Shown here piece by piece: positions 36,311 through 48,987 of a DNA stretch of 64,000 bases; the first letter of the stretch is position 1; every line of letters begins with the position of its first letter. Position numbers and translations under genes: made by a program. Under the pieces are notes generated by a model, which worked only from the letters and a program-made list of their open reading frames with translations, had not been told where the DNA came from and did no database searches. This DNA comes from Falsiroseomonas bella (GTDB taxonomy: Bacteria > Pseudomonadota > Alphaproteobacteria > Acetobacterales > Acetobacteraceae), in contig NZ_QGNA01000001.1 of the NCBI RefSeq assembly GCF_003173615.1, positions 930,001 through 994,000 on the forward strand. Direction: 5' to 3'.

Positions 36311-37561
36311 ATGGACCTGCGCCAGAAGCTCGAGATCCTTGCCGACGCCGCGAAATACGACGCTTCCTGCGCGTCCTCCGGCACGGCGAAGCGCGACTCG
36401 ACGCGGGGCGGGCTGGGCAGCACGGAGGGCATGGGGATCTGCCACGCCTACGCGCCGGACGGGCGCTGCATCTCGCTGCTGAAGATCCTGCTGACCAATG
36501 CCTGCGCCTTCGACTGCGCCTACTGCGTGAACCGCGCGAGTTCGAACGTGCGGCGCGCGCGCTTCACGGTGGCCGAGGTCGTGAAGCTGACGCTCGACTT
36601 CTACCGGCGCAACGCGATCGAGGGGCTTTTTCTTTCGTCGGGCATCACGCGATCCGCCGACTGGACGATGGAGCAACTGGTGCTGGTCGCGCGCACGCTG
36701 CGCGAGGAGCACGGCTTCCAGGGCTACATCCATCTGAAGACCATTCCCGACGCGTCGCCGGAACTGGTGGAGGAAGCGGGGCGCTGGGCGGATCGCCTCT
36801 CGATCAACATCGAACTGCCGGAAGCTGGCAGCCTGAAGGCGCTCGCGCCCGAGAAGGATCTGTCCGAGATCAAGAAGGCGATGGGCGGGCTGCGCGCGCG
36901 CATCGAGGGCGCGCGGGAGGACCTGCGTACGGCACGGCGCGCGAAGGCGCCGCGCTTCGCGCCGGCGGGGCAGAGCACGCAGATGATCGTGGGCGCCGAT
37001 GCCTCGGACGATGCGACCATCCTCGGCACGGCGACGGATCTCTATGCGGGCTACCGGCTGAAGCGGGTGTACTACTCCGCCTATTCGCCGATCCCGGATG
37101 CGTCGCGCGCCCTGCCGCCAATCGCGCCGCCGCTGGTGCGGGAGCACCGGCTCTACCAAGCGGACTGGCTGCTGCGCTTCTACGGCTTCTCGCGCGAGGA
37201 GGTGATAGCGGGCGGCGAGGGCGGGATGCTGGACCTGTCCCTCGACCCCAAGACCGCCTGGGCGCTGAAGCACCGCGCCGACTTTCCCGTGGACCTGAAC
37301 CGCGCCCCGCGGGAGCGGCTGCTGCGGGTGCCGGGGCTGGGCGCGAAGACGGTTGACAAGATCCTCGCCACGCGCCGGCACAGCGCGATCCGTGCGGAGG
37401 ATCTCGCGCGGTTGCACGTGAGCCTGCCGAAGGTGCTGCCCTTCGTGATCACGGCGGACCACCGGCCGCGCCTGCTGGACAGCGGCGGCCTGCGGGAGCG
37501 GCTGATCCCGGGCACCGCCTTCGTGGCTGCGGCGCGGCCGGTGCAGATGAGCCTGTTCTGA
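36311..37561 (+). CDS. putative DNA modification/repair radical SAM protein
   Basis: A 416-residue protein of the family that is genetically linked to UdgX-type uracil-DNA glycosylases. The iron-sulfur motif is CAFDCAYC (Cys65, Cys69, Cys72), after the hallmark start ILADAAKYDASCASSGTAKR. A helix-hairpin-helix DNA-binding motif near the end (LLRVPGLGAKTVDKILATRR, residues about 337-356) supports action on DNA. The start at 36311 gives the family's usual N-terminus. A LexA box overlaps the promoter. Stop and the next start share one base (TGATG), so the UdgX-fusion protein is made from the same mRNA. Its reaction is unknown. Confidence 0.9.
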   Translation: MDLRQKLEILADAAKYDASCASSGTAKRDSTRGGLGSTEGMGICHAYAPDGRCISLLKILLTNACAFDCAYCVNRASSNVRRARFTVAEVVKLTLDFYRRNAIEGLFLSSGITRSADWTMEQLVLVARTLREEHGFQGYIHLKTIPDASPELVEEAGRWADRLSINIELPEAGSLKALAPEKDLSEIKKAMGGLRARIEGAREDLRTARRAKAPRFAPAGQSTQMIVGADASDDATILGTATDLYAGYRLKRVYYSAYSPIPDASRALPPIAPPLVREHRLYQADWLLRFYGFSREEVIAGGEGGMLDLSLDPKTAWALKHRADFPVDLNRAPRERLLRVPGLGAKTVDKILATRRHSAIRAEDLARLHVSLPKVLPFVITADHRPRLLDSGGLRERLIPGTAFVAAARPVQMSLF

Positions 37562-39021
37562 TGGGCATGGCCGCCGTCCTGCCCGGCCCGGCCGACTTCG
37601 CCGCCTGGCGCGGCGCGGCGCGCGGCATGCTCGCCGCCGGCGTGCCGCCTGAAGACACGGAATGGCGGGTCGCCGGCGATGCGCCGAGCCTCTTCGCCGA
37701 GGCGGCGCCGCCGCCCGCCTCCAGTGGCGCGCACGTGCCGCGTGCCTTCGTGGACCTGGCCGAGATCGCGATCCGCCATGCCGATCCGGAGCGCTTCGCG
37801 CTGCTGTATCGCGTGCTGTGGCGCCTGACGCATGGCGAGCCGGCGCTGATGCAGGTGGCGACCGATGCGGACGTCGTGCGGCTGCACGCCATGGCCAAGG
37901 CGGTGAAGCGCGATGCGCACAAGATGCACGCCTTCCTCCGCTTCCGGCAGGTCGAGACCGAGGCCGGCACGCGCCACGTCGCCTGGTTCGAGCCGGACCA
38001 TCACATCGAGGACGCCGAGGCCGGCTTCTTCGTGCGGCGCTTCGCCGGGCTGCGCTGGTCGATCGTGACGCCGCGGCGGAGCGTGCACTGGAACGGCACC
38101 GATCTCTCCTTCGGCCCGGGAGGACGCCGGCAGGACGTGCCGCCCGACGACGCGGTGGAGCCTCTGTGGCGTGCCTACTACGCCGCGATCTTCAACCCCG
38201 CGCGGCTCAAGCCCGGCGCGATGCGTGCGGAGATGCCGCGCAAATACTGGCGCAACATGCCGGAGACGGCGGAAATCCCGCGCCTGATGGCGGAAGCGCC
38301 GCGCCGCGCGGCGGAGATGCTTTCCCGCGATGCGACCGCGCCACGGCCCAATCCGCAACGCCTGCATCCGCCCGGCCGGGCCGACGTTGAGGAGGCGATG
38401 GACCTGCTCGATGCCGGAACCGATCCGAAGGCGGCGCTTGCCGCGCTCGCACGCGAGCTGGCGGGCCGGAACGACCTGCCGGACTTCGCACGGCGCGCGA
38501 CGCAGATGGTGTTCGGCGAAGGGCCGGTCGGCGCGCCGTTGTTCTTCGTGGGCGAGCAGCCGGGCGACGAGGAGGACATCCAGGGCAGGCCCTTCGTCGG
38601 GCCCGCGGGACGGCTCTTCGATCGTGCGCTGGATGCCGCGCAGGTGCCGCGCGACGAGGCCTATGTCACCAATGCGGTGAAGCACTTCAAGTTCACGCCG
38701 ACCGGCAAGCGGCGGCTGCATCAGAGCCCGGATGCCGGCGACATCGCCTATTACCGCCCCTTCCTGCTGCGCGAGATCGGCATCGTCGCGCCGCGCCTGC
38801 TGGTCGGGCTCGGCGCGACGGCGCTGCGCGCGCTGACCGGCAAGGCGGTGCCGGTGATGAAGGCGCGCGGCACGATCCTCCCCGGGCCCGAGGGTTTGCC
38901 GGTCTTCGCCACCGTCCATCCCAGCTACCTGCTGCGCCTGCCGGACGAGGAGGTGCAGCGGCGCGAATATGCCCGCTTCGTGGAGGACCTGCGCGCCGCG
39001 CATGCGCAGGCGGCGGCCTAG
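37561..39021 (+). CDS. DUF4130-UdgX fusion, uracil-DNA cross-linking repair protein
   Basis: A 486-residue two-domain protein. Residues 1 to about 260 match the SAM-linked DUF4130 family (VWRLTHGEPAL, VKRDAHKMHAFLRFRQVE, HIEDAEAGFFVRRF). The rest is a family 4-like uracil-DNA glycosylase domain with FFVGEQPGDEEDIQGRPFVG and the UdgX-specific KRRLH (383-387) in TPTGKRRLHQSP. In known UdgX proteins the His of this motif becomes covalently linked to the abasic sugar after uracil removal; here it is His387. The late motif VHPSYLLRLPDEEVQRRE is also present. Co-transcribed with the radical-SAM gene and probably LexA-controlled. Confidence 0.93.
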   Translation: MGMAAVLPGPADFAAWRGAARGMLAAGVPPEDTEWRVAGDAPSLFAEAAPPPASSGAHVPRAFVDLAEIAIRHADPERFALLYRVLWRLTHGEPALMQVATDADVVRLHAMAKAVKRDAHKMHAFLRFRQVETEAGTRHVAWFEPDHHIEDAEAGFFVRRFAGLRWSIVTPRRSVHWNGTDLSFGPGGRRQDVPPDDAVEPLWRAYYAAIFNPARLKPGAMRAEMPRKYWRNMPETAEIPRLMAEAPRRAAEMLSRDATAPRPNPQRLHPPGRADVEEAMDLLDAGTDPKAALAALARELAGRNDLPDFARRATQMVFGEGPVGAPLFFVGEQPGDEEDIQGRPFVGPAGRLFDRALDAAQVPRDEAYVTNAVKHFKFTPTGKRRLHQSPDAGDIAYYRPFLLREIGIVAPRLLVGLGATALRALTGKAVPVMKARGTILPGPEGLPVFATVHPSYLLRLPDEEVQRREYARFVEDLRAAHAQAAA

Positions 39022-40086: not shown

Positions 40087-40671
40087 TCAGCCCCGCAGCA
40101 GCCGCGCCCACTCGGCCAGCGCGGCCACGCATTTCGCCACGGCGGCGAGGCTGCGCTCGTCGGTCAGCTCGCCCTCAGTGAAGCGGGTGCCGGCGCTGCC
40201 GACATAGACTTCCGGTCCGGGCATCACGCGCATGCCCGTGTTGAGCAGCACGGTGCGCAGTTGCTGCTGCGACCGCGCGGTGCCGAGCGAGCCCGGCGTC
40301 GCGCCCATGATCGCCACCGGCAGGTCCTGCAGCGGCGTCTTGCGCGTCTCGCCTTCGGGCGCTGTGCGGCCGCCGATGCCCTCCGCGCGGGAGGCCCAGT
40401 CGATCGCGTTCTTCAGTGGGGCGGGCATGCCGGCGTTGTATTCGGGCGTCGCGACCAGCATCGCCTCGGCCGGCCACAGCGCGCGCCGGAACTCCTGCAC
40501 GGCCGCGGGCCATGCCGGCTTCTCGAGGTCCTCGTTGATCAGCGGCAGCGCGCCGATCTCCACCACCTCGAGCGTGACGCCGGCCGGCAGATGCGCCGCG
40601 GCGGCGCGCAGCAGCGCACGGTTGTAGGACGCGGCGCGCAGGCTGCCGCAGATGCCGACGATCTTCACCAT
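40087..40671 (-). CDS. NADPH-dependent FMN reductase
   Basis: A 194-residue flavodoxin-fold enzyme with the FMN-binding GICGSLRAASYNRALLRAAA opening, the ATPEYNAGMPAPLKNAIDWAS stretch and IMGATPGSLGTARSQQQLR. SsuE/ChrR-like reductases reduce FMN or quinones with NADPH. The ATG at 40671 follows the stop of the cupin gene by 2 bp, so it is translated from the same mRNA and closes a five-gene cluster. Reduced flavin or electrons for the iron oxygenases is one possible role, not shown by the sequence. Confidence 0.9.
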   Translation of the reverse strand: MVKIVGICGSLRAASYNRALLRAAAAHLPAGVTLEVVEIGALPLINEDLEKPAWPAAVQEFRRALWPAEAMLVATPEYNAGMPAPLKNAIDWASRAEGIGGRTAPEGETRKTPLQDLPVAIMGATPGSLGTARSQQQLRTVLLNTGMRVMPGPEVYVGSAGTRFTEGELTDERSLAAVAKCVAALAEWARLLRG

Positions 40672-40673
40672 GT

Positions 40674-41852
40674 TCAGCTCTCCCGGACGACCAGGCCTCG
40701 TCGCATGAGTCGCCGGCAGAAATCCACCGCGCCGTCCCCGAGTTCCCCGGGCGTCGCGCCGTCGGCGAGGCGCTCCATCCAGCCGGCCTGCCGCGCATCC
40801 AGCCGAAGCTGCGCGCCCACCCAGCGCAGGGAGGCGCCGCCATCGGCCTCCGGCACCAGCACATGCAGCACGCCGGGCGCCAGGCGGAGCCGCGTGCCCT
40901 CCTCCGGCATCGGCACGAACAGGCCACGCCCGAGCAGCGCGGGACGATCCGCCGCCAGCCGGTCCAGCAGTTCCAGCGCCGTGCGTTCCAGCGCCGCCGG
41001 CTCCGCGAGGCGCGCCGCGAGCGGCCGCGCCATCTCCGCCAGCCGCCCCGGCCCCTCCGCCAGGCGCCACGTGGGAAACGTCTCGCGCAGCGCCGGCTCA
41101 GTCTCCTCCAGCAGGTCCACCGCCAGGCGCAGCACGGCGGCGAAGGAGGGGTCCATCAGCCCGATGGTGATGTGCAGCGACGGCGCATCGCCCGCCTGCG
41201 CCGCGGCATCATGCATCACGCCGCGGGGAACGTAGAGCGTGTCGCCCGCGCGCAGCGTCAGCGCCGCCGGTTCGCCACTCGCAGAAAGATTGCCGGGCCA
41301 GGGCGTGCGGCGCGTCGGGCGCGGCACGGGCTGGTCGGGGAACAGCCGCCAGCGCTTCTCGCCGGTCACCTGCAGCACCAGCACGTCATGCGTGTCGTAA
41401 TGCACCCGGAACCCCTGCGCGCCCGGGGGCGTCAGGTAGATGTTGGCCTGCACCGCGTGCAGGAAAATCTGCTCCAGGCCGCGGCAGAAGCGCATCAGCG
41501 GCGGATGCATCTCGTGGAACTGGGAGACCACCAGCGTCGCGCCAGCGTCGAAGGCGCCGAACAGGCCGGGCAGGTCCACGCGGTCGTCGTCGCGCAGGTA
41601 TTCGTGCCGTGGCACCGCGGCGCTGCCCTCCCGCCGGCTGTCGGCCATGGAGACGCGCGGCGCGCGCGCCGCATCGGTGGCCAGGAAGGCATCGAGATCC
41701 GCGACCGAGAGCAGCGAAGCGTGATGGCCGGGCGCGGGGCCGGGCACATGGCGCCAGGCGGTGCCCTCGCGCAGCGCCAGCCCGTCCTCGACGGGCAGGT
41801 CGCCGAAGGCCTGGCGCCAGGCCGTTTCCGCCAATGTCGCGTCGCTCGTCAT
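40674..41852 (-). CDS. cupin_4/JmjC-domain iron oxygenase, copy 1 (RoxA/YcfD-like)
   Basis: A 392-residue protein of the cupin_4 family, whose studied members (YcfD/RoxA, MINA53, NO66) are 2-oxoglutarate/Fe(II) hydroxylases of arginine or histidine in ribosomal proteins. The facial triad is visible: His151 and Asp153 in FRVHYDTHDVLVLQ, and His214 in VPRGVMHDA. A winged-helix-like C-terminal region follows. It shares the layout of the second copy 1.1 kb away. It starts 30 bp after the stop of the repeat-protein gene, and its stop is 2 bp from the FMN reductase start, so all are probably one transcript. The target is probably not the ribosome if the neighbourhood is meaningful. Confidence 0.88.
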   Translation of the reverse strand: MTSDATLAETAWRQAFGDLPVEDGLALREGTAWRHVPGPAPGHHASLLSVADLDAFLATDAARAPRVSMADSRREGSAAVPRHEYLRDDDRVDLPGLFGAFDAGATLVVSQFHEMHPPLMRFCRGLEQIFLHAVQANIYLTPPGAQGFRVHYDTHDVLVLQVTGEKRWRLFPDQPVPRPTRRTPWPGNLSASGEPAALTLRAGDTLYVPRGVMHDAAAQAGDAPSLHITIGLMDPSFAAVLRLAVDLLEETEPALRETFPTWRLAEGPGRLAEMARPLAARLAEPAALERTALELLDRLAADRPALLGRGLFVPMPEEGTRLRLAPGVLHVLVPEADGGASLRWVGAQLRLDARQAGWMERLADGATPGELGDGAVDFCRRLMRRGLVVRES

Positions 41853-41882
41853 CGGCGCCAGCCTATCGGCCCGGCCGCGCGG

Positions 41883-42467
41883 TCACCAGCGGCGTCGGCC
41901 GCGGCCGGGCGGATCGGAGGGATCGCTGTCGCTCGGTCCGGCGAGATAGCGCGGCACGCCGGAATAGCCGCGGCCACGGCCGGGCGGGTCGGACGGGTCG
42001 CTGTCGCTGGCGCCGCTGCGATAGGGCGCGCGGTACCCGCCGCGTCCGCCGCCGGGCGGATCGGACGGGTCGCTGTCATTGGCGCCGGTGCGATAGGAGG
42101 CGCGATAGCCGCCGCGTCCGCCGCCGGGCGGATCGGAGGGATCGTTGTCGCTGACGCCGGTGCGATAGGGGGTGCGATAGCCGCCGCGTCCGCCGCCCGG
42201 CGGGTCGGCCGGGTCGTTGTCGCTGGGCCCGGCGCGATAGGGCGCGCCGTAGCCGCCGCGCCCACCGCCAGGCGGGTCGGAGGGGTCGTTGTCGCTGGCA
42301 CCGGAATAGCTGGCGCCGGCCGGCGGATAGGGCGGCACATGCGCGGTCGGCGGCAGCGGGGCCACGCAGGCCGAGGTGGCGCCGCCCGCCCCGCCCACGG
42401 CCAGCAGCTGCAGCACGAACAATCGCCGCCGCAGCGGCTTCGCCGGTTCCCCTTCGCCATCGGCCAT
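41883..42467 (-). CDS. Tat-signal protein with six Asp/Pro/Gly/Arg repeats
   Basis: A 194-residue protein I cannot place in a named family. The N-terminus has a Tat-like motif (PLRRRLFVLQLLAVGGAGG) ending in a possible lipobox at Cys34 (TSAC). Residues 57-194 are six tandem copies of a 24-residue unit, SDNDPSDPPGGGRGGYRxPYRxG, the last shortened. Units are acidic-proline-rich in the first half and Gly/Arg/Tyr-rich in the second. The ATG at 42467 follows GGGAGGA by 7 nt. It lies between two cupin_4 oxygenase genes in one cluster. Because Tat exports folded or modified proteins, hydroxylation in the cytoplasm before export is a plausible scheme, but the substrate role is inference. Confidence 0.75.
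   Translation of the reverse strand: MADGEGEPAKPLRRRLFVLQLLAVGGAGGATSACVAPLPPTAHVPPYPPAGASYSGASDNDPSDPPGGGRGGYGAPYRAGPSDNDPADPPGGGRGGYRTPYRTGVSDNDPSDPPGGGRGGYRASYRTGANDSDPSDPPGGGRGGYRAPYRSGASDSDPSDPPGRGRGYSGVPRYLAGPSDSDPSDPPGRGRRRW
41886..42299 (-). repeat. 72-bp tandem coding repeat
   Basis: Five full units of 72-75 bp and one of 51 bp encode the 24-residue repeats (residue blocks 57-80, 81-104, 105-128, 129-152, 153-177, 178-194). The acidic half SD(N/S)DPSDPPG is nearly invariant; the GGYRxPYR half varies. Confidence 0.9.
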
Positions 42468-42550
42468 GGCGCAATCCTCCCGGACCGGAACGGCCCGCGC
42501 CGCAGGCTGCGCGGAAATCATGGCGATGGCGTGAAGGAACCGCGCCGGAA

Positions 42551-42970
42551 TCAGCGCGGGGCGGGCATCACCACGATCGTCACGGCGCGCGCGCCCGGCT
42601 CCTGCAGGCGGCCGCTATAGGCCGTGACGCGCGCCTCGGCCCGCACGCGGTCGCGCTCCACCCCGCGCTGCGCCAGCGCCTGCGCCACCGCCCGCGCGCG
42701 ACGCGCCGCGAGCTGGGTGGAGCTTTCGGCGCCCAGGCTGCGATCGGCATGGCCGAGGACGCAGATGTTCCGCTCCGGCTCCGCCTTCGCCAGCGCGGCG
42801 GCGGTGTCGATGCCGGTGCGCGCAACCTCCCGCAGCCGGTCGGAGCCGCGTTCGAAGGGCACGGCGAAGACATCGTCCTCCAGCGCCTCGGCCCCGACGC
42901 AGGAGAAGTCGCGCGGCTGGCCGAGTGCCAGGCCCGGCCAGAGCAGCGCGAGCGCCAGAAGCCGCCTCAA
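42551..42970 (-). CDS. OmpA-like peptidoglycan-binding domain protein
   Basis: A 139-residue exported protein: signal peptide (RRLLALALLWPGLALGQP), then one OmpA C-terminal-like domain with DVFAVPFERGSDRLREVART, ICVLGHADRSLGAESSTQLA and ARRARAVAQALAQRGV. Such domains bind diaminopimelate in the cell wall. The start is a TTG whose last two bases overlap the stop of the upstream cupin gene (TTGA), so translation is coupled. A cysteine in RDFSCVGAEAL is not in a lipobox. Confidence 0.83.
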   Translation of the reverse strand: MRRLLALALLWPGLALGQPRDFSCVGAEALEDDVFAVPFERGSDRLREVARTGIDTAAALAKAEPERNICVLGHADRSLGAESSTQLAARRARAVAQALAQRGVERDRVRAEARVTAYSGRLQEPGARAVTIVVMPAPR

Positions 42971-44190
42971 GCCGCGGGCACCAGCAGCCCGGCGCCGGCC
43001 AGCCTGCCGAGCAGCGCCTCGGCCTCCACGGCCGGATGCGCGCGGGCGAGCTCCGGCGCGGTGACGTCGTTGCGGGCCAGCAGCCAGCCGGCGGCCTCGG
43101 CCTCCGGCGGGCTCAGCGGCAGGACGCCGCTCGCGGTCTTCACCACCCACTCCGCGCCGCGCCGCACCGGCTTGGCGCCGTTCGCCACCACGCGAAAGGA
43201 CGCGGCGCCCTCGCCCGCTTCCTCGGCCGCGCCGCCGCCGATGCCGCGGGCGGAGAGAATGTCGTAGCCGCCGCGGCTGTAGCGATAGCCCGCCACGAAC
43301 TGCGCCAGCGCCTCCATCACCTTCGGCTCCTTCGCGAATTCGGCGATGCGCTGGCCGAGCAGGCCGGCGCGCTGCGTCAGCGCGAATTTCGCCGGTGCGG
43401 TTCCATCCTGGCGCGGCAGCGGCTTGCGGAACTCCGCATCGTGCAGCGCGCGTTCCATCAGGATGTTGAGCAGGTCCATCCCGAGCGGCGCGTGGACGCC
43501 ATAGGCGATGTGCACGCTCGCCGGCGCCTCGGCCAGCGCGTCGTGGTACCAGCCGCGCGGCAGGTAGAGGAGGTCGCCGGGCTTCATCTTCACCACGCCG
43601 CGCAGCTTGCCGCGGGCCTGGTCGTGATGCGCCTGGGGCTGGCCCTTGAAGACCGGATGCGGGATCGGCCACTCGGCGCGACCTTCCCAGATGTTCCAGT
43701 CCTTCTCGCCTTCCACCTGCACGGCCCAGACGTCGTGCGTGTCGTAGTGGGTCTTGAACGCCTTGTGGCTCTGCCAGGAGATGTAGACATTGGCCTGCGC
43801 CTTCCCGAGCCCCGCCGCCTCCAGCGCATTGGAGACGGAGGCGAGGCCGGGCGTGAGGCTGTCCACGTCGTTCATCACCACGCTCGCGCCCTTGGCGATC
43901 CAGGCCTGCACGAGCTTCGCATCGGGCTGCAGCACCTGGCCGCCGTCGCGGCCAAGGGTGCGCGTGCAGAACTGCTCGGGCGGGATGGTCTGGCTGTCCA
44001 GCACCAGCTTCAGCGAGGTGCCGGTCCAGATATGCGTCATGTCGAGCAGCCGGTTGATCTGCCGCCAGGACAGCACCTGCGCGAACTTTCCCGGCGTGCC
44101 GCGCACATGCAGCGGCGCCCTGTCGTAATGCTCGGCCAGGAACTGCTCCGGCGTTACCGGGGCGAGCAGCGCGGCGAAATCGGTGATCAT
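42967..44190 (-). CDS. cupin_4/JmjC-domain iron oxygenase, copy 2
   Basis: A 407-residue paralogue of the oxygenase at 40674-41852. The triad is His148 and Asp150 (FKTHYDTHDVWAVQ) and His216 (LPRGWYHDALA); YRYSRGGYDILSAR-type and winged-helix-like C-terminal regions follow. Family members hydroxylate amino-acid side chains of proteins. It is the first gene of the minus-strand cluster and the OmpA-like gene overlaps its stop. It diverges from the GDH gene, with about 100 bp between their starts. Confidence 0.88.
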   Translation of the reverse strand: MITDFAALLAPVTPEQFLAEHYDRAPLHVRGTPGKFAQVLSWRQINRLLDMTHIWTGTSLKLVLDSQTIPPEQFCTRTLGRDGGQVLQPDAKLVQAWIAKGASVVMNDVDSLTPGLASVSNALEAAGLGKAQANVYISWQSHKAFKTHYDTHDVWAVQVEGEKDWNIWEGRAEWPIPHPVFKGQPQAHHDQARGKLRGVVKMKPGDLLYLPRGWYHDALAEAPASVHIAYGVHAPLGMDLLNILMERALHDAEFRKPLPRQDGTAPAKFALTQRAGLLGQRIAEFAKEPKVMEALAQFVAGYRYSRGGYDILSARGIGGGAAEEAGEGAASFRVVANGAKPVRRGAEWVVKTASGVLPLSPPEAEAAGWLLARNDVTAPELARAHPAVEAEALLGRLAGAGLLVPAA

Positions 44191-44289
44191 GGCCGGTTTC
44201 TACCATCCCGCGCGGAGCCGTGACACGGGTCCGTGCTTGCGGCGGGGGGCATCCTGCCGGCACCCTTCGGATCAACCAGGAGGCGCCAG

Positions 44290-47200
44290 ATGACAGACGC
44301 AGCCACCGCCACCCCGCCCGGCCGGGGCGAGGACGGCGTCCGGCCCGGGGTGCTGGCCGCCGCCGAGGCCGCGCTGGCCCGCACGGCCCCGGCCCTGCCC
44401 GGGGCCGCGGTCGCGCTCCTGCACCGGCTGTTTGCCGCCGTGCCCACTGCGGAACTCGCCGCGACGCCGCCCGAGGCGCTGGCCGAGGCCGCGGCGAGCC
44501 TCTTCGCCTTCGCGGCCGAGCGCCGCCCGCGGGAGGCGAAGCTGCGCGTGCTGCCGCCCGGCCCCGGCCGGGGCGCGCTGCCGGTGGTCGAGGTCGTGGT
44601 GGACGACATGCCCTTCCTGGTGGACAGCGCGCTGGCCGCGCTGGCGCTGCGCGGGCGGACGGTGCGCCAGCTGCTGCACCCGATCGTCCCGGTGCGCCGC
44701 GACGCCGAGGGCAGGCTGCTCGAGATCGCCGAGGGCGCGCCGGGCCGCGAAAGCATGATGCGCATCGCGCTGGCCCCGGCCGCGGCGGTGACGCTCGGCG
44801 CCGGCGCGCCGACGCCGGCGGTGGACGAGCTCGGCGCGCTGCAGGATGCGCTGGCCCGCGCCATGGCGGATGTGCGGATCGCCGTGACGGATTTTCGCGC
44901 CCTGCGCGCCCGCCTGGAGGAGGCCGAGTCGGAGGTCGAGGGCGGCGAGAACGCGGAGTTCCTGCGCTGGCTGGGTGACGACAACTTCGTCCTGCTCGGC
45001 CATCGCCGGCTGGTGCTGCATTCCGACGGCACGGCGACGGTGGCGGAGGAGGAGAATCTCGGCCTGCTGCGCGATGGCCGCCTGCCGGTGTTCGACGCGC
45101 TGCGCGGGCTGCCCGCGCTGCCGGCGGCGGTGCGCGACAACCTGCTGCGCATGGGCGCGGTGACGGTCGCCAAGGCCAACATGCGCTCCACCGTGCATCG
45201 GCCGCAGCACGCCGATGTGGTCATCACGCGCATCTGCGACGAGGCGGGGCGCATCACCGGCGGGCGGCTGTTCCTCGGCCTCTTCGCCGCCGCGGCCTAC
45301 AACCGCAACCCGCGCTCCATCCCGCTGCTGCGGGAGAAGGTGCTGCGCATCCTTGCGCAGGCCGGCGTGGATCCGGAGACGCATGACGGCCGCGCGCTGC
45401 GCAACATCCTCGACACCTGGCCGCGCGACGAGCTGTTCCAGGCGCCCGAAGGGGCGATCCTGCAGGGGTGCCTGCGCGCGCTCGATCTCTCGATCCGGCC
45501 GCGCGCCGCGCTGGTGCTGCGCCGCGATCCCTTCGAGCGATTCGTCTCCGCCATCGCCTGGCTGCCGCGCGACACCTTCGACACCGCGATGCGCGAGCGC
45601 GCGGGCGGGCTGATCGCGCGCGCCTTCGGCGGCCGGCTCTCCGCCTTCTACACCTTGCTCGGCGATGCGCCGCTGGCGCGCGTGCACTACGTGATCGGGA
45701 CCACGCCCGGCGCGCTGCCCGCGGTGGACGATGCCGCGCTCGAAGCGGCGCTGGCGCAGGCCGCGCGCGGCTTCCGCGACCGGCTGGAGGAGGCGCTGAC
45801 CGCCCAGCGCGGCGAGGCCGAGGCCGCCGAGGTGATGGCGCGCTGGCGCGAGGCCTTCCCGCCCGCCTACCGCCAGACCGAGACCGTCGCGCAGGGCATC
45901 GCCGACATCCAGCTCGCGGAATACGCCGGCGTGACCGGCAGGCCGCGCGCCGTCCTGTCGCGCCCGCCCGGCGCCGGGCCGCGCGCGCTCTCGCTCCGCC
46001 TCGCCAGCCCGAACGACCCGCTCGCGCTGGCCGATGCGCTGCCGCTCTTCGAGAGCCTGGACCTGCGCGCCATCGAGGAGGTGCCGCACCGGCTGACACC
46101 CGCCATGGGCCGCCAGGTCGTGCTGCATCTCTACCGGCTGGAGGCGCGCGCCGACTTCCCGGAGGAGCGGCTCGGCATCCTGGCCGGCGCGCTGCACGCG
46201 CTGCTCGACGGCACCGTCGAGGCCGACGGGTTCAACCGCCTCGTGCTCCGCGCGGACATCGAATGGAAGGATTGCTGGCTGCTGCGGGCGATGTATCGCT
46301 GGCTGAAGCAGGTCGGCTTCCCCTTCGCGCAGGAAAGCGTGGAGGCCGCGCTGGCCGCCAACCCGGACGCCGCGCGCATCCTGGTGGAGCTGTTCCACAA
46401 GCGCTTCAGCCCCGACGAGACGGACCGCGACGAGACGAGGCTCGACGCCGCCTGGCGCACCCTGCTCGACGGCGTGGCGAACCCCGACGCGGACCGCATC
46501 CTGTCGCGCCTGCGCACCGTGCTGGACGCGATGCTGCGCACCAACTGGTACCAGGCGAAGGACTACCTCTCCTTCAAGCTGGACAGTGCGCGTGCCGGCG
46601 ACATGCCGGCGCCGCGGCCCTGGCGCGAGATCTTCGTCCACTCGCCGCGCATGGAGGGGGTGCATCTGCGCGCGGGCGCGGTGGCGCGCGGCGGCATCCG
46701 CTGGTCCGACCGGCGCGAGGATTTCCGGACCGAGATCCTCGGCCTGATGAAGGCCCAGCGGCTGAAGAACGTCGTCATCGTGCCGACCGGCGCGAAAGGC
46801 GGCTTCATCCTGAAGCACCCGCCGCCCGCGACGGACCGCGAGGCCTTCATGGCGGAGGGCGTCGCGGCCTATCGCACGCTGGTGCGCGGCATGCTGGACC
46901 TGACGGACAACATCACCGCGGAGGGCATCGCGACGCGCGAGAACGTCGTGCGGCGCGACGGCGACGATCCCTACATCGTCGCGGCCGCGGACAAGGGCAC
47001 GGCCACCTTCTCCGACATCGCGAACGACCTCTCCGCCGAATACGGCTTCTGGCTCGGCGATGCCTTCGCGAGCGGTGGTTCGGCAGGATACGACCACAAG
47101 GGCATGGGCATCACGGCGCGCGGCGCGTGGGTGATGGTGGACCGCCACTTCCAGGAGACCTTCGGCCGTTCCGTGCAGGACGCGCCCTTCACCTGCGCGG

Positions 47201-48987
47201 GCGTCGGCGACATGTCGGGCGACGTGTTCGGCAACGGGCTGCTGGTCTCGCGCGAGACGAAGCTCGTCGCCGCCTTCGACCACCGCCACATCTTCCTCGA
47301 TCCCGATCCGGACCTCGAGTCTTCCTACCGCGAGCGGGAGCGGCTGTTCCGGCTGCCGCGCTCCTCCTGGGCCGACTACGATGCGCGGCTGCTCTCGCCC
47401 GGCGGCGCGATCCTGCCGCGCAACGCGAAGACGCTGCCGCTGAGCGAGCAGGCGCGCGCGCTGCTCGGCATCGCAGCGGAACGCGCCGAGCCCGCGGAGA
47501 TCATGCGCGCGATCCTGACGCTGCCGGTGGACCTGCTCTATTTCGGCGGCATCGGCACCTATGTGAAGGCGAGCACCGAGACGCAGGCCGAGGCCGGCGA
47601 CCGCGCCAATGATGCGATCCGCGTGGATGGCGCGGCGCTGCGCGCGCGCGTGCTGGGGGAGGGCGCCAATCTCGGCATCACCCAGGCCGGGCGGATCGAG
47701 GCGGCGCGGCATGGCGTGCGGCTCAACACCGATGCGCTCGACAATTCGGCGGGCGTGTCCACCTCCGACCACGAGGTCAACATCAAGATCCTGCTGGCGG
47801 AAGCCGAGCGCGACGGCACCTTGACGCGGCGGCAGCGCGACGAGCTGCTCTCCGACATGACGGAGGAGGTCGCGGCGCTGGTGCTGGCCGACAACACGGC
47901 ACAGTCGCTGGCAGTCAGCCTGGAGGCGATGCGCGCGCCGGAGGAGCTCGCCACGCATGGCACGCTGATGCAGCGGCTGGAAGCGCAGGGCGTGCTGGAC
48001 CGCGCCGTCGCCGGCCTGCCGGACGCCGCCGCGCTGCGCATGCGCGCCGCGGCGAATGAGGGCCTGACGCGGCCCGAGATCGCGGCGCTGCTGCCTTTCG
48101 CGAAGCTCTGGCTGACCGAGGCGATCGAGGACAGCGCGCTGCCGGACGACCCGGCGCTGGCGCCGCTGCTCGTCGCCTATTTCCCGAGCGCGCTGCGCGA
48201 GCGCTTCGCCGCCTACATCCCGCGCCATCGGCTGCGGCGGGAACTGGTGGCGATGATGCTGGCGAACATGGTGGCGAACCGCCTCGGCGCGGCCGGGCTG
48301 TCGCGCCTGGTCGGCGCGGCGGGCGATGCCGTCGCGGTCGCGCGCGCCGCCTGGCTCGCCGATGCGCTGTTCGGTCTGGAGCAGGCGGCGGCGGAAGCCG
48401 ATGCCGCGCCGGCGCCGGCCGGGACGCGGCTCGATGTGCTGCTCGGGCTGCGGCGGCTGCAGGAAGCGGCGGCGCGTGAACTGATGGGCGGCGAGGGGCC
48501 GCTCGATGCCGCGCGCGACGCGCTCGCCCCCGGCATCGCCGCGCTGGTCGCGGCGGCGGAGGCCGAGCCCGGGCCGGAGGCCGGCGTGCTGGCCGAGGCC
48601 GGAATCCCGCCGCGCGCCGCGGCGCTTGCGGTGGCGCCGCGGCTTGCCGCCGCGCCGGCGATCGTGCGGCTGGCGCAGCAGGCCGGCGTCGCGCCGGATC
48701 TCGCGGCACAGGCCTGGGCCACGGTGGGGGAGACTTTCGCGCTCGACGCGCTGCGCCTCGCGGCTGAGGGCGCGCGCGCCACGGGCCCCTTCGCCGCCCG
48801 CGCCAAGGCCGAGGCGCTCGAGGATCTCGTCGGCCTGCAGGCGCGGCTGGCGCAGGCGAGCCTCAGCGGCATGGCGCCGGACGGGCCGGAAGCGCGGGAG
48901 GCGGCGAGCCTGGCACGCGATGCGGCGGCGGCCGGCGACCTCGTCGCCATCGGCGTCGCGGCGCGGGCGCTGGGCGGGCTAGGATAG
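44290..48987 (+). CDS. NAD-specific glutamate dehydrogenase, 180-kDa class
   Basis: A 1565-residue enzyme of the L_180/GdhB class that deaminates glutamate to 2-oxoglutarate using NAD. The large N-terminal ACT-like/regulatory half is followed by the catalytic dehydrogenase domain with PTGAKGGFILKHPP (catalytic Lys), AADKGTATFSDIANDLS, GSAGYDHKGMGITARGAW, and CAGVGDMSGDVFGNGLL. The ATG at 44290 has CCAGGAGG about 7 nt upstream and is preferred over a start 19 codons earlier. Single-gene transcription unit; a palindromic repeat cluster follows its stop. Confidence 0.96.
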   Translation: MTDAATATPPGRGEDGVRPGVLAAAEAALARTAPALPGAAVALLHRLFAAVPTAELAATPPEALAEAAASLFAFAAERRPREAKLRVLPPGPGRGALPVVEVVVDDMPFLVDSALAALALRGRTVRQLLHPIVPVRRDAEGRLLEIAEGAPGRESMMRIALAPAAAVTLGAGAPTPAVDELGALQDALARAMADVRIAVTDFRALRARLEEAESEVEGGENAEFLRWLGDDNFVLLGHRRLVLHSDGTATVAEEENLGLLRDGRLPVFDALRGLPALPAAVRDNLLRMGAVTVAKANMRSTVHRPQHADVVITRICDEAGRITGGRLFLGLFAAAAYNRNPRSIPLLREKVLRILAQAGVDPETHDGRALRNILDTWPRDELFQAPEGAILQGCLRALDLSIRPRAALVLRRDPFERFVSAIAWLPRDTFDTAMRERAGGLIARAFGGRLSAFYTLLGDAPLARVHYVIGTTPGALPAVDDAALEAALAQAARGFRDRLEEALTAQRGEAEAAEVMARWREAFPPAYRQTETVAQGIADIQLAEYAGVTGRPRAVLSRPPGAGPRALSLRLASPNDPLALADALPLFESLDLRAIEEVPHRLTPAMGRQVVLHLYRLEARADFPEERLGILAGALHALLDGTVEADGFNRLVLRADIEWKDCWLLRAMYRWLKQVGFPFAQESVEAALAANPDAARILVELFHKRFSPDETDRDETRLDAAWRTLLDGVANPDADRILSRLRTVLDAMLRTNWYQAKDYLSFKLDSARAGDMPAPRPWREIFVHSPRMEGVHLRAGAVARGGIRWSDRREDFRTEILGLMKAQRLKNVVIVPTGAKGGFILKHPPPATDREAFMAEGVAAYRTLVRGMLDLTDNITAEGIATRENVVRRDGDDPYIVAAADKGTATFSDIANDLSAEYGFWLGDAFASGGSAGYDHKGMGITARGAWVMVDRHFQETFGRSVQDAPFTCAGVGDMSGDVFGNGLLVSRETKLVAAFDHRHIFLDPDPDLESSYRERERLFRLPRSSWADYDARLLSPGGAILPRNAKTLPLSEQARALLGIAAERAEPAEIMRAILTLPVDLLYFGGIGTYVKASTETQAEAGDRANDAIRVDGAALRARVLGEGANLGITQAGRIEAARHGVRLNTDALDNSAGVSTSDHEVNIKILLAEAERDGTLTRRQRDELLSDMTEEVAALVLADNTAQSLAVSLEAMRAPEELATHGTLMQRLEAQGVLDRAVAGLPDAAALRMRAAANEGLTRPEIAALLPFAKLWLTEAIEDSALPDDPALAPLLVAYFPSALRERFAAYIPRHRLRRELVAMMLANMVANRLGAAGLSRLVGAAGDAVAVARAAWLADALFGLEQAAAEADAAPAPAGTRLDVLLGLRRLQEAAARELMGGEGPLDAARDALAPGIAALVAAAEAEPGPEAGVLAEAGIPPRAAALAVAPRLAAAPAIVRLAQQAGVAPDLAAQAWATVGETFALDALRLAAEGARATGPFAARAKAEALEDLVGLQARLAQASLSGMAPDGPEAREAASLARDAAAAGDLVAIGVAARALGGLG

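Follow-up and report, generated by a model that had tools for sequence, protein, structure and literature searches.

Substrates are known for only a few bacterial JmjC hydroxylases, namely uL16 for YcfD and ornithine (Orn) in biphenomycin. Here we describe a gene pair located in a 64,000-nucleotide stretch of the Falsiroseomonas bella genome (contig NZ_QGNA01000001.1, positions 930,001 to 994,000), below called the window. The pair consists of an oxygenase of the JmjC_2 family (PF08007), named oxy2, and a twin-arginine repeat protein, named REP, which is probably its substrate. No description of a REP-JmjC_2 pair was found in the open-access literature searched, which leaves out most subscription papers.

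The best sequence relatives of oxy2 are the ribosomal oxygenases NO66 and MINA53 (E 1e-19), with which it shares the predicted full-length fold, the iron triad, the 2-oxoglutarate (2OG) lysine and the pocket Asn and Tyr. The NO66 residues that hold the substrate His are Tyr328 and Ser421 (PMC9994133). In oxy2, the tyrosine is kept as Tyr139, whereas the serine is replaced by Gly231. Further, the REP motif contains no conserved His, and oxy2 is linked to an exported and not a ribosomal protein. By these features oxy2 does not classify as a His hydroxylase of the NO66/MINA53 type. The uL16 Arg hydroxylase RoxA/YcfD is likewise a bacterial JmjC_2 protein and has the same fold at lower scores, its sequence match to oxy2 being weaker (E 9e-6). 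However, the enzyme tree places the RoxA-type proteins of genomes G544, G369 and G546 in a clade of their own. L320 of G544, the only one of the three compared with YcfD, matches YcfD-type structures at E 1e-75 to 1e-88 and is a true RoxA orthologue. It coexists with a REP-linked enzyme in the same genome, so the latter is not RoxA. An identity of oxy2 as a RoxA/YcfD orthologue was rejected on these grounds, its E value of 9e-6 comparing with a match of L320 at least at the 1e-75 level.

Hydroxylases acting on genetically linked precursors are also known from biphenomycin-type ribosomally synthesized and post-translationally modified peptides (RiPPs), where the JmjC or cupin-like enzymes are BipG, BpmG and PbsQ (PMC12707348, PMC12257519). 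There, one Orn is formed via arginase in a multi-enzyme pathway, whereas here a lone oxygenase accompanies a multi-repeat exported protein. Bufferins and oxazolins have signal-peptide-bearing, sometimes repeat-containing precursors encoded ahead of an iron oxygenase (PMC12452194). Bufferin and Buf_EGKCG/oxazolin systems are characterized by multinuclear non-heme iron-dependent oxidases (MNIO, DUF692), Cys motifs and Sec signals. In contrast, oxy2 belongs to PF08007, the repeats of the window REP contain no Cys and REP carries a twin-arginine signal, which sets the pair apart from bufferins. Bregman et al. 2025 reported a JmjC domain (PF08007) fused to a fold resembling the RiPP recognition element (RRE), with the closest bacterial homologues (~30% identity) in RiPP-like contexts (PMC12710340). 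In oxy2, the predicted C-terminus shows strands and then three helices. The section of that report dealing with these fusions gives no precursor family, repeat or taxon for them. If REP is taken as the presumed precursor, a linked precursor gene and modifying enzyme, as in RiPPs, are found at 71/80 oxy2 loci and in 11/11 distant genomes. We regard REP-oxy2 as a RiPP-like system for a presumably modified, signal-bearing exported protein, and as no more than a candidate RiPP.

Linkage of REP and oxy2 in the window and across genomes

REP and oxy2 are part of a five-gene minus-strand cluster with the order oxy1, OmpA-like gene, REP, oxy2 and reductase, separated by -4, 83, 30 and 2 bp, just as the original prediction had described it. 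The REP gene (41883-42467) encodes 194 residues and starts with an ATG located after GGGAGG, an alternative upstream ATG being found at 42521. Its signal helix (residues 12-34; 42366..42434), the sole helix predicted by AlphaFold2, is followed by a lipobox-like TSAC and by a repeat block of six [S/N]DxDPxDPPGxGRG units (41886..42299). No other stop-to-stop frame of the window has at least two matches to the repeat motif. The oxy2 gene (40674-41852) encodes a putative Fe(II)/2OG oxygenase, an assignment based on Pfam, alignment and modeling; co-occurrence and adjacency mark it as the partner of REP. Both oxygenases of the cluster pass the PF08007 cut-off of 22 bits (oxy2, 86.7; oxy1, 80.3), and the genome contains no further JmjC_2 match. 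The named oxy2 nearest to the window copy is that of Roseomonas sp. AR75 (93% identity).

Genome comparison shows that REP and oxy2-type enzymes are inherited together as a gene pair, both in Acetobacteraceae and in six or more further alphaproteobacterial families. Among 200 Acetobacteraceae genomes, REP was identified in 29 and oxy2 in 27, with both present in 27, REP only in 2 (G143 and G213), oxy2 only in 0 and neither in 171. Of 102 genera, the 14 that contain one gene also contain the other, and a Fisher test of their co-occurrence, uncorrected for kinship, gave 2e-31. Contrasts can be observed within single genera as well, with both genes in G074 and neither in G158 and G208, and both in G175 and G222 and neither in G101. 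The host genus is represented by 15 genomes, of which 15 encode REP and 14 oxy2, the G014 copy being a fragment only.

Locus comparisons were carried out on the best 80 of 120 confirmed oxy2 loci, taken from GTDB species. REP is located directly upstream of oxy2 in 71 and within 5 kb in 72 of these 80 loci, and adjacent loci show -13 to 237 bp between REP and the aligned oxy2 start. At least two REP frames precede one oxy2 in 31/80 loci, with frames counted stop to stop and part of them overlapping. For the nine non-adjacent loci (L193, L195, L197, L199, L219, L220, L229, L235 and L263), REP was found elsewhere in 7/7 genomes searched; the search took 12 genomes, five of them of Phreatobacter type, and left out L197 and L199. 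The gene order of the window is kept in full by several relatives; it is altered in G004, G006, G012, G013 and G008 and split in other genera. The first four, found among 37 REP loci fetched, keep oxy1-ompA-REP and encode oxy2 elsewhere, ~70 kb from REP in G006 and G013, ~60 kb in G004 and on a different contig in G012. Displaced oxy2 genes are still followed by the reductase gene in L193, L197 and L199, not in L195. In G008, oxy1 was lost and REP-oxy2 retained.

Outside the family, a REP profile run over 385 genomes of the class identified 10 genomes from five families, all of which (10/10) encode a JmjC_2 protein within ~1 kb of REP. An eleventh outside genome, G761, was found in the phylum sample and represents a sixth family, bringing the number of genomes with a neighboring JmjC_2-REP pair to 11/11. 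In G761, no JmjC_2 gene was seen in the flanks of the profile-detected REP pair. Its sole JmjC_2 gene is located on another contig, divergent beside two further REP-like genes, which the REP profile missed and which were found only by inspecting the neighborhood of the enzyme. A profile of oxy2-type enzymes run over the same 385 genomes returned 13 matches at E <= 2e-108, the next one following at 5e-55, and 12 of the 13 are located beside REP. REP-like frames were found in 0/18 next-tier JmjC_2 loci fetched and in the flanks of 0/31 other JmjC_2 loci overall (13 in REP genomes plus the 18 of the next tier). L330 and L178 are one gene of G143, which was counted once, among the oxy1 loci. Confinement of the pair to the host genus was rejected, REP and oxy2 being found in other genera and other families. 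Spread beyond Alphaproteobacteria was rejected as well: five of 398 phylum genomes contain REP at E <= 1e-6, all of them from the same class. The suggestion that the repeats are the candidate substrate of the adjacent JmjC_2 enzyme is strengthened by these counts (71/80 loci, 11/11 genomes); repeat genes of relatives do not consistently lack cupin_4 (JmjC_2) neighbors.

Two further types of REP locus were observed. A second REP gene of the host genus (class B; L048:7501-8526, similar in L041, L057, L060, L061 and L066) has no JmjC_2 gene nearby and is flanked by a histidine kinase/response regulator pair on one side and by an ATP-binding cassette (ABC) transporter cluster (permeases, ATPases) on the other. 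Class C REP genes, found in four genomes (L054, L055, L056 and L059), are located beside permease-like and acetyl-CoA-carboxylase-alpha-like genes. The names of these neighbors, in both classes, were read from sequence.

Conserved features of oxy2 and of the repeats

oxy2 retains the catalytic residues and, according to structural modeling, the fold of ribosomal oxygenases. The iron triad, predicted to be complete and found to be so (H151-D153-H214), and the 2OG lysine (K166) are invariant in 22 aligned oxy2 homologues and likewise in 15 mixed rows. The AlphaFold2 model of oxy2 (predicted local distance difference test, pLDDT, 89) yields a full-length match to NO66 (Foldseek E 2e-23, template modeling score, TM, 0.6-0.7, ~450 alignment columns), with JmjC, helical and winged-helix parts predicted in a single chain. 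The C-terminal winged-helix-like region comprises approximately residues 322-390, the model showing its strands and three helices at 322-384. In the pocket, N137 and Y139 are retained relative to NO66, and NO66 Ser421 aligns with the invariant Gly231; a glycine at this position is common to RoxA-type and oxy1 rows. At R149, located two residues ahead of the first iron-ligand His, all 21 near rows show Arg, 8/11 far rows show Arg or Lys, three RoxA-type rows show Gly and NO66 shows Ala. Based on strand register, the R149 side chain would point toward the iron centre. REP-associated enzymes outside the family are ~30% identical to oxy2. The enzyme tree neither supported nor refuted a single clade of REP-type enzymes, and it pulled four long 'other' rows in among those of oxy2. 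In the Acetobacteraceae genome G076, the enzyme partnering REP (L096/L119) groups with the distant type, in a poorly resolved part of the tree, and may reflect horizontal transfer of the pair.

Searches with 21 REPs did not reveal any convincing Pfam or NCBIfam family, the strongest candidate being the short repeat model PF06462, which matched 8 members at a best E of 0.003. The repeats had been described as SDxDPxDPPGxGRG; they are indeed present, their better general form being [TS]DxDPxDxxGxGRG. Distant repeats are often three residues longer, e.g. TDSDTGAYADPVGQGRG. Residue conservation was assessed with the other motif positions held fixed and only for proteins with at least three motif matches. 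The Asp triad shows no replacement at all (536/536 near, 80/80 long distant and 38/38 short distant repeats). The Arg of GxGR is kept in 96, 93 and 88% of near, far-long and far-short repeats, respectively, being lost in 22/558, 6/86 and 5/43. In L298 (G497), the REP units are almost identical (TGQTDNDSTDRSGQGRNM), suggesting recent repeat homogenisation.

The twin-arginine translocation (Tat) signal attributed to REP finds support in the alignment, R14-R15 being invariant in 21/21 aligned REPs. RRx[hydrophobic] is found ahead of the first motif in 117/131 frames; among those lacking it are truncated frames and frames whose first motif match precedes the signal. Curated Tat models give weak scores for the 21 REPs, TIGR02811 matching 3 (best E 0.033) and TIGR01409 matching 1 (best E 0.011). 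Several distant REPs carry SRRSF, which we take to be close to the Tat consensus. A lipobox-like Cys after the signal is found in 39/112 REPs of oxy2 loci. The repeats are predicted to be unfolded, and a folded repeat domain was rejected based on an AlphaFold2 pLDDT of ~43 over the repeats, obtained from a shallow and repetitive alignment.

Proposed modification of REP and alternative explanations

The conserved REP-oxy2 neighborhood in this bacterium and many relatives suggests modification of the repeats before export, and oxy2 is probably a dedicated protein hydroxylase of REP acting ahead of Tat. We hypothesize that oxy2 binds unfolded REP in the cytoplasm, possibly via its C-terminal winged-helix region, and hydroxylates one residue type in the repeats using Fe(II), O2 and 2OG. 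Both Fe(II) and 2OG are found in this compartment. Modified REP would subsequently exit via Tat, either to be released or, in cases such as this one in which a lipobox is found, to become an anchored lipoprotein. A single oxy2 may act on the products of unlinked REP genes in its genome as well, and oxy1, the OmpA-like protein and the reductase should be dispensable.

Our leading, if tentative, candidate for the target is the Asp of the invariant DxD...D triad, conversion of which to beta-hydroxyaspartate would yield a metal-binding envelope protein. Asp is considered first because the triad is absolute and a basic residue is located near the iron. Since siderophores are known to use beta-hydroxyaspartate for binding metal, a metal-binding envelope protein would be a reasonable product. 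Oxidation of Asp or Asn is carried out by FIH and AspH (PMC9994133). Tyr was rejected as a target: it is frequent in some linkers and absent from the enzyme-linked L096 repeats. His was rejected as well, a linker His being found in several genus members only, with the window and most others lacking it.

Several points weigh against this proposal. The known JmjC_2 enzymes, to our knowledge, target His or Arg and not Asp, and oxy2 keeps the pocket Asn and Tyr of NO66 (N137, Y139). The linker His mentioned above (GRGGHRG) is present in several members of the genus, although not in the window. The invariant Asp could also bind metal unmodified. The statistics of the pair correct for phylogeny no further than genus counts. 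REP was found with no oxy2 detected in G143 (97% complete), G213 (78%) and G005 (97%, 740 contigs). REP genes lacking a JmjC_2 gene in their vicinity are frequent within the same genomes (class B and class C loci), with several further unlinked REP genes in G037 and G451; such genes would have products that are either modified in trans or left unmodified. G422 (L358) encodes a REP-type enzyme (424 bits) with no REP-like frame in the 2.7 kb of contig seen and none found genome-wide by the REP profile; this enzyme possibly has a different substrate. Finally, the window oxy1 falls into the next profile tier (2e-53) and yet lies near REP, so proximity alone is no proof.

The second potential target is the near-invariant Arg of GxGR, which would be converted to C3-hydroxyarginine by RoxA/YcfD chemistry acting on a repeat protein, a sub-variant overlapping our proposal that we consider possible but rather doubtful. 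It is suggested by the near-invariance of GxGR (see percentages above) together with the chemistry of YcfD, which hydroxylates Arg81 of uL16 (PMC5862935), and the Arg-derived Orn of a biphenomycin RiPP is hydroxylated by a JmjC enzyme (PMC12707348). However, Arg is lost in 22/558 near repeats as compared with 0/536 for Asp, and oxy2 is nearer to NO66/MINA53, for which Arg peptides are neither substrates nor inhibitors (PMC9994133), than to YcfD. That oxy2 oxidizes REP in some other way, forming a cross-link, desaturation or macrocycle, appears unlikely. Such chemistry is reportedly carried out by alpha-ketoglutarate enzymes in RiPPs, as is said to be described by Xia et al. 2025, whereas all characterised enzymes with the ribosomal-oxygenase fold that we know of hydroxylate or were described as demethylases, and the sequences give no hint of a cross-link.

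REP might instead be a partner or regulator of oxy2, the enzyme acting on another, e.g. ribosomal, protein and the linkage reflecting co-regulation or binding. Related enzymes with established substrates indeed target ribosomal proteins, and REP genes with no enzyme nearby exist. This explanation is nevertheless quite improbable, as REP has an export signal and oxy2 apparently none, at least two REP frames precede one enzyme in 31/80 loci and G544 encodes a separate RoxA alongside its REP enzyme. Still more improbable is the full model of the original prediction, in which the two oxygenases, together with the OmpA-like protein and the reductase, make up a single system for modifying and tethering REP. 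The single tight same-strand cluster found in the window and several relatives would fit such a system; however, oxy1-ompA is found without REP in other genera, REP-oxy2 lacks an adjoining oxy1 or reductase at 22 loci in other genera, with an OmpA-like gene present at a single one of them, and the pair persists in G008 without oxy1.

Hydroxylation of REP by oxy2, if correct, would bring exported repeat proteins of Alphaproteobacteria within the range of protein hydroxylation, and Tat would join the routes by which modified ribosomal peptides are exported. The pair provides a whole enzyme clade with an experimentally testable candidate substrate and offers a handle on repeat proteins lacking a convincing Pfam or NCBIfam family. 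Should Asp be the target, REP-oxy2 would represent a JmjC counterpart of bufferins. It is conceivable, though we would not yet count on it, that the repeat proteins constitute a new family whose members are made on the ribosome, exported and able to bind metal. In such a family, a lone JmjC_2 enzyme would convert the aspartates of tandem DxDxxD repeats to beta-hydroxyaspartate in the cytoplasm and Tat would carry the poly-hydroxylated chain to the envelope, where it may serve as a metal buffer or as a Ca- or Fe-dependent surface polymer, one enzyme acting on several scattered repeat genes.

The oxy1-ompA block and other neighboring genes

oxy1 (42967-44190, minus strand) likewise has a complete triad (H148-D150-H216), as predicted, and the structures closest to it are those of B. 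subtilis YxbC. The two oxygenases had been called cupin_4 paralogues; both belong to PF08007, but their relationship is remote (phmmer E about 1e-20 to 1e-25) and they fall into separate clades. The OmpA-like gene (42551-42970, minus strand; PF00691) has a TTG start that overlaps the oxy1 stop by 4 bp. Among the best 30 oxy1 matches, an OmpA-like gene follows oxy1 in 28/30 loci and a divergent gdh-like gene is seen in 21/30. In the window, this marker of the block is a large open reading frame on the plus strand (44233..48987), presumably NAD-glutamate-dehydrogenase-like. Outside the genus, 0/27 oxy1 loci have a REP-like frame within 1.5 kb, and 15 of the 41 family genomes with a strong oxy1 (E <= 1e-128) contain no REP. 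Within the 22 loci from other genera, which have neither oxy1 nor reductase beside REP-oxy2, L115 has no REP near and L111 has the OmpA-like gene ahead of REP, at a contig end. Gene order and clade assignments indicate that the cluster is made up of two units, REP-oxy2 and gdh-oxy1-ompA, lying side by side in the genus. Joint action of both oxygenases is accordingly not borne out, and oxy1 as a second REP enzyme was rejected given its separate clade and gene block. The OmpA-like protein, envisaged as a tether, travels with oxy1 and not with REP, which does not support that role. oxy1-ompA represents a second JmjC_2 gene conserved with an exported-type neighbor.

The NADPH-dependent FMN reductase (40087-40671, minus strand; FMN_red, PF03358) is accessory or incidental. 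It had been suggested to keep the oxygenases reduced, but a required role is not supported; by distribution it is a genus-level addition, being found beside oxy2 in part of the host genus only and unseen in the 22 loci of other genera. We know of no need of 2OG oxygenases for a flavin reductase. At 36311-39021, the window further encodes a radical S-adenosylmethionine (SAM) protein adjoining a DUF4130-uracil-DNA-glycosylase fusion, and the same two genes are found near the class A REP locus in L038.

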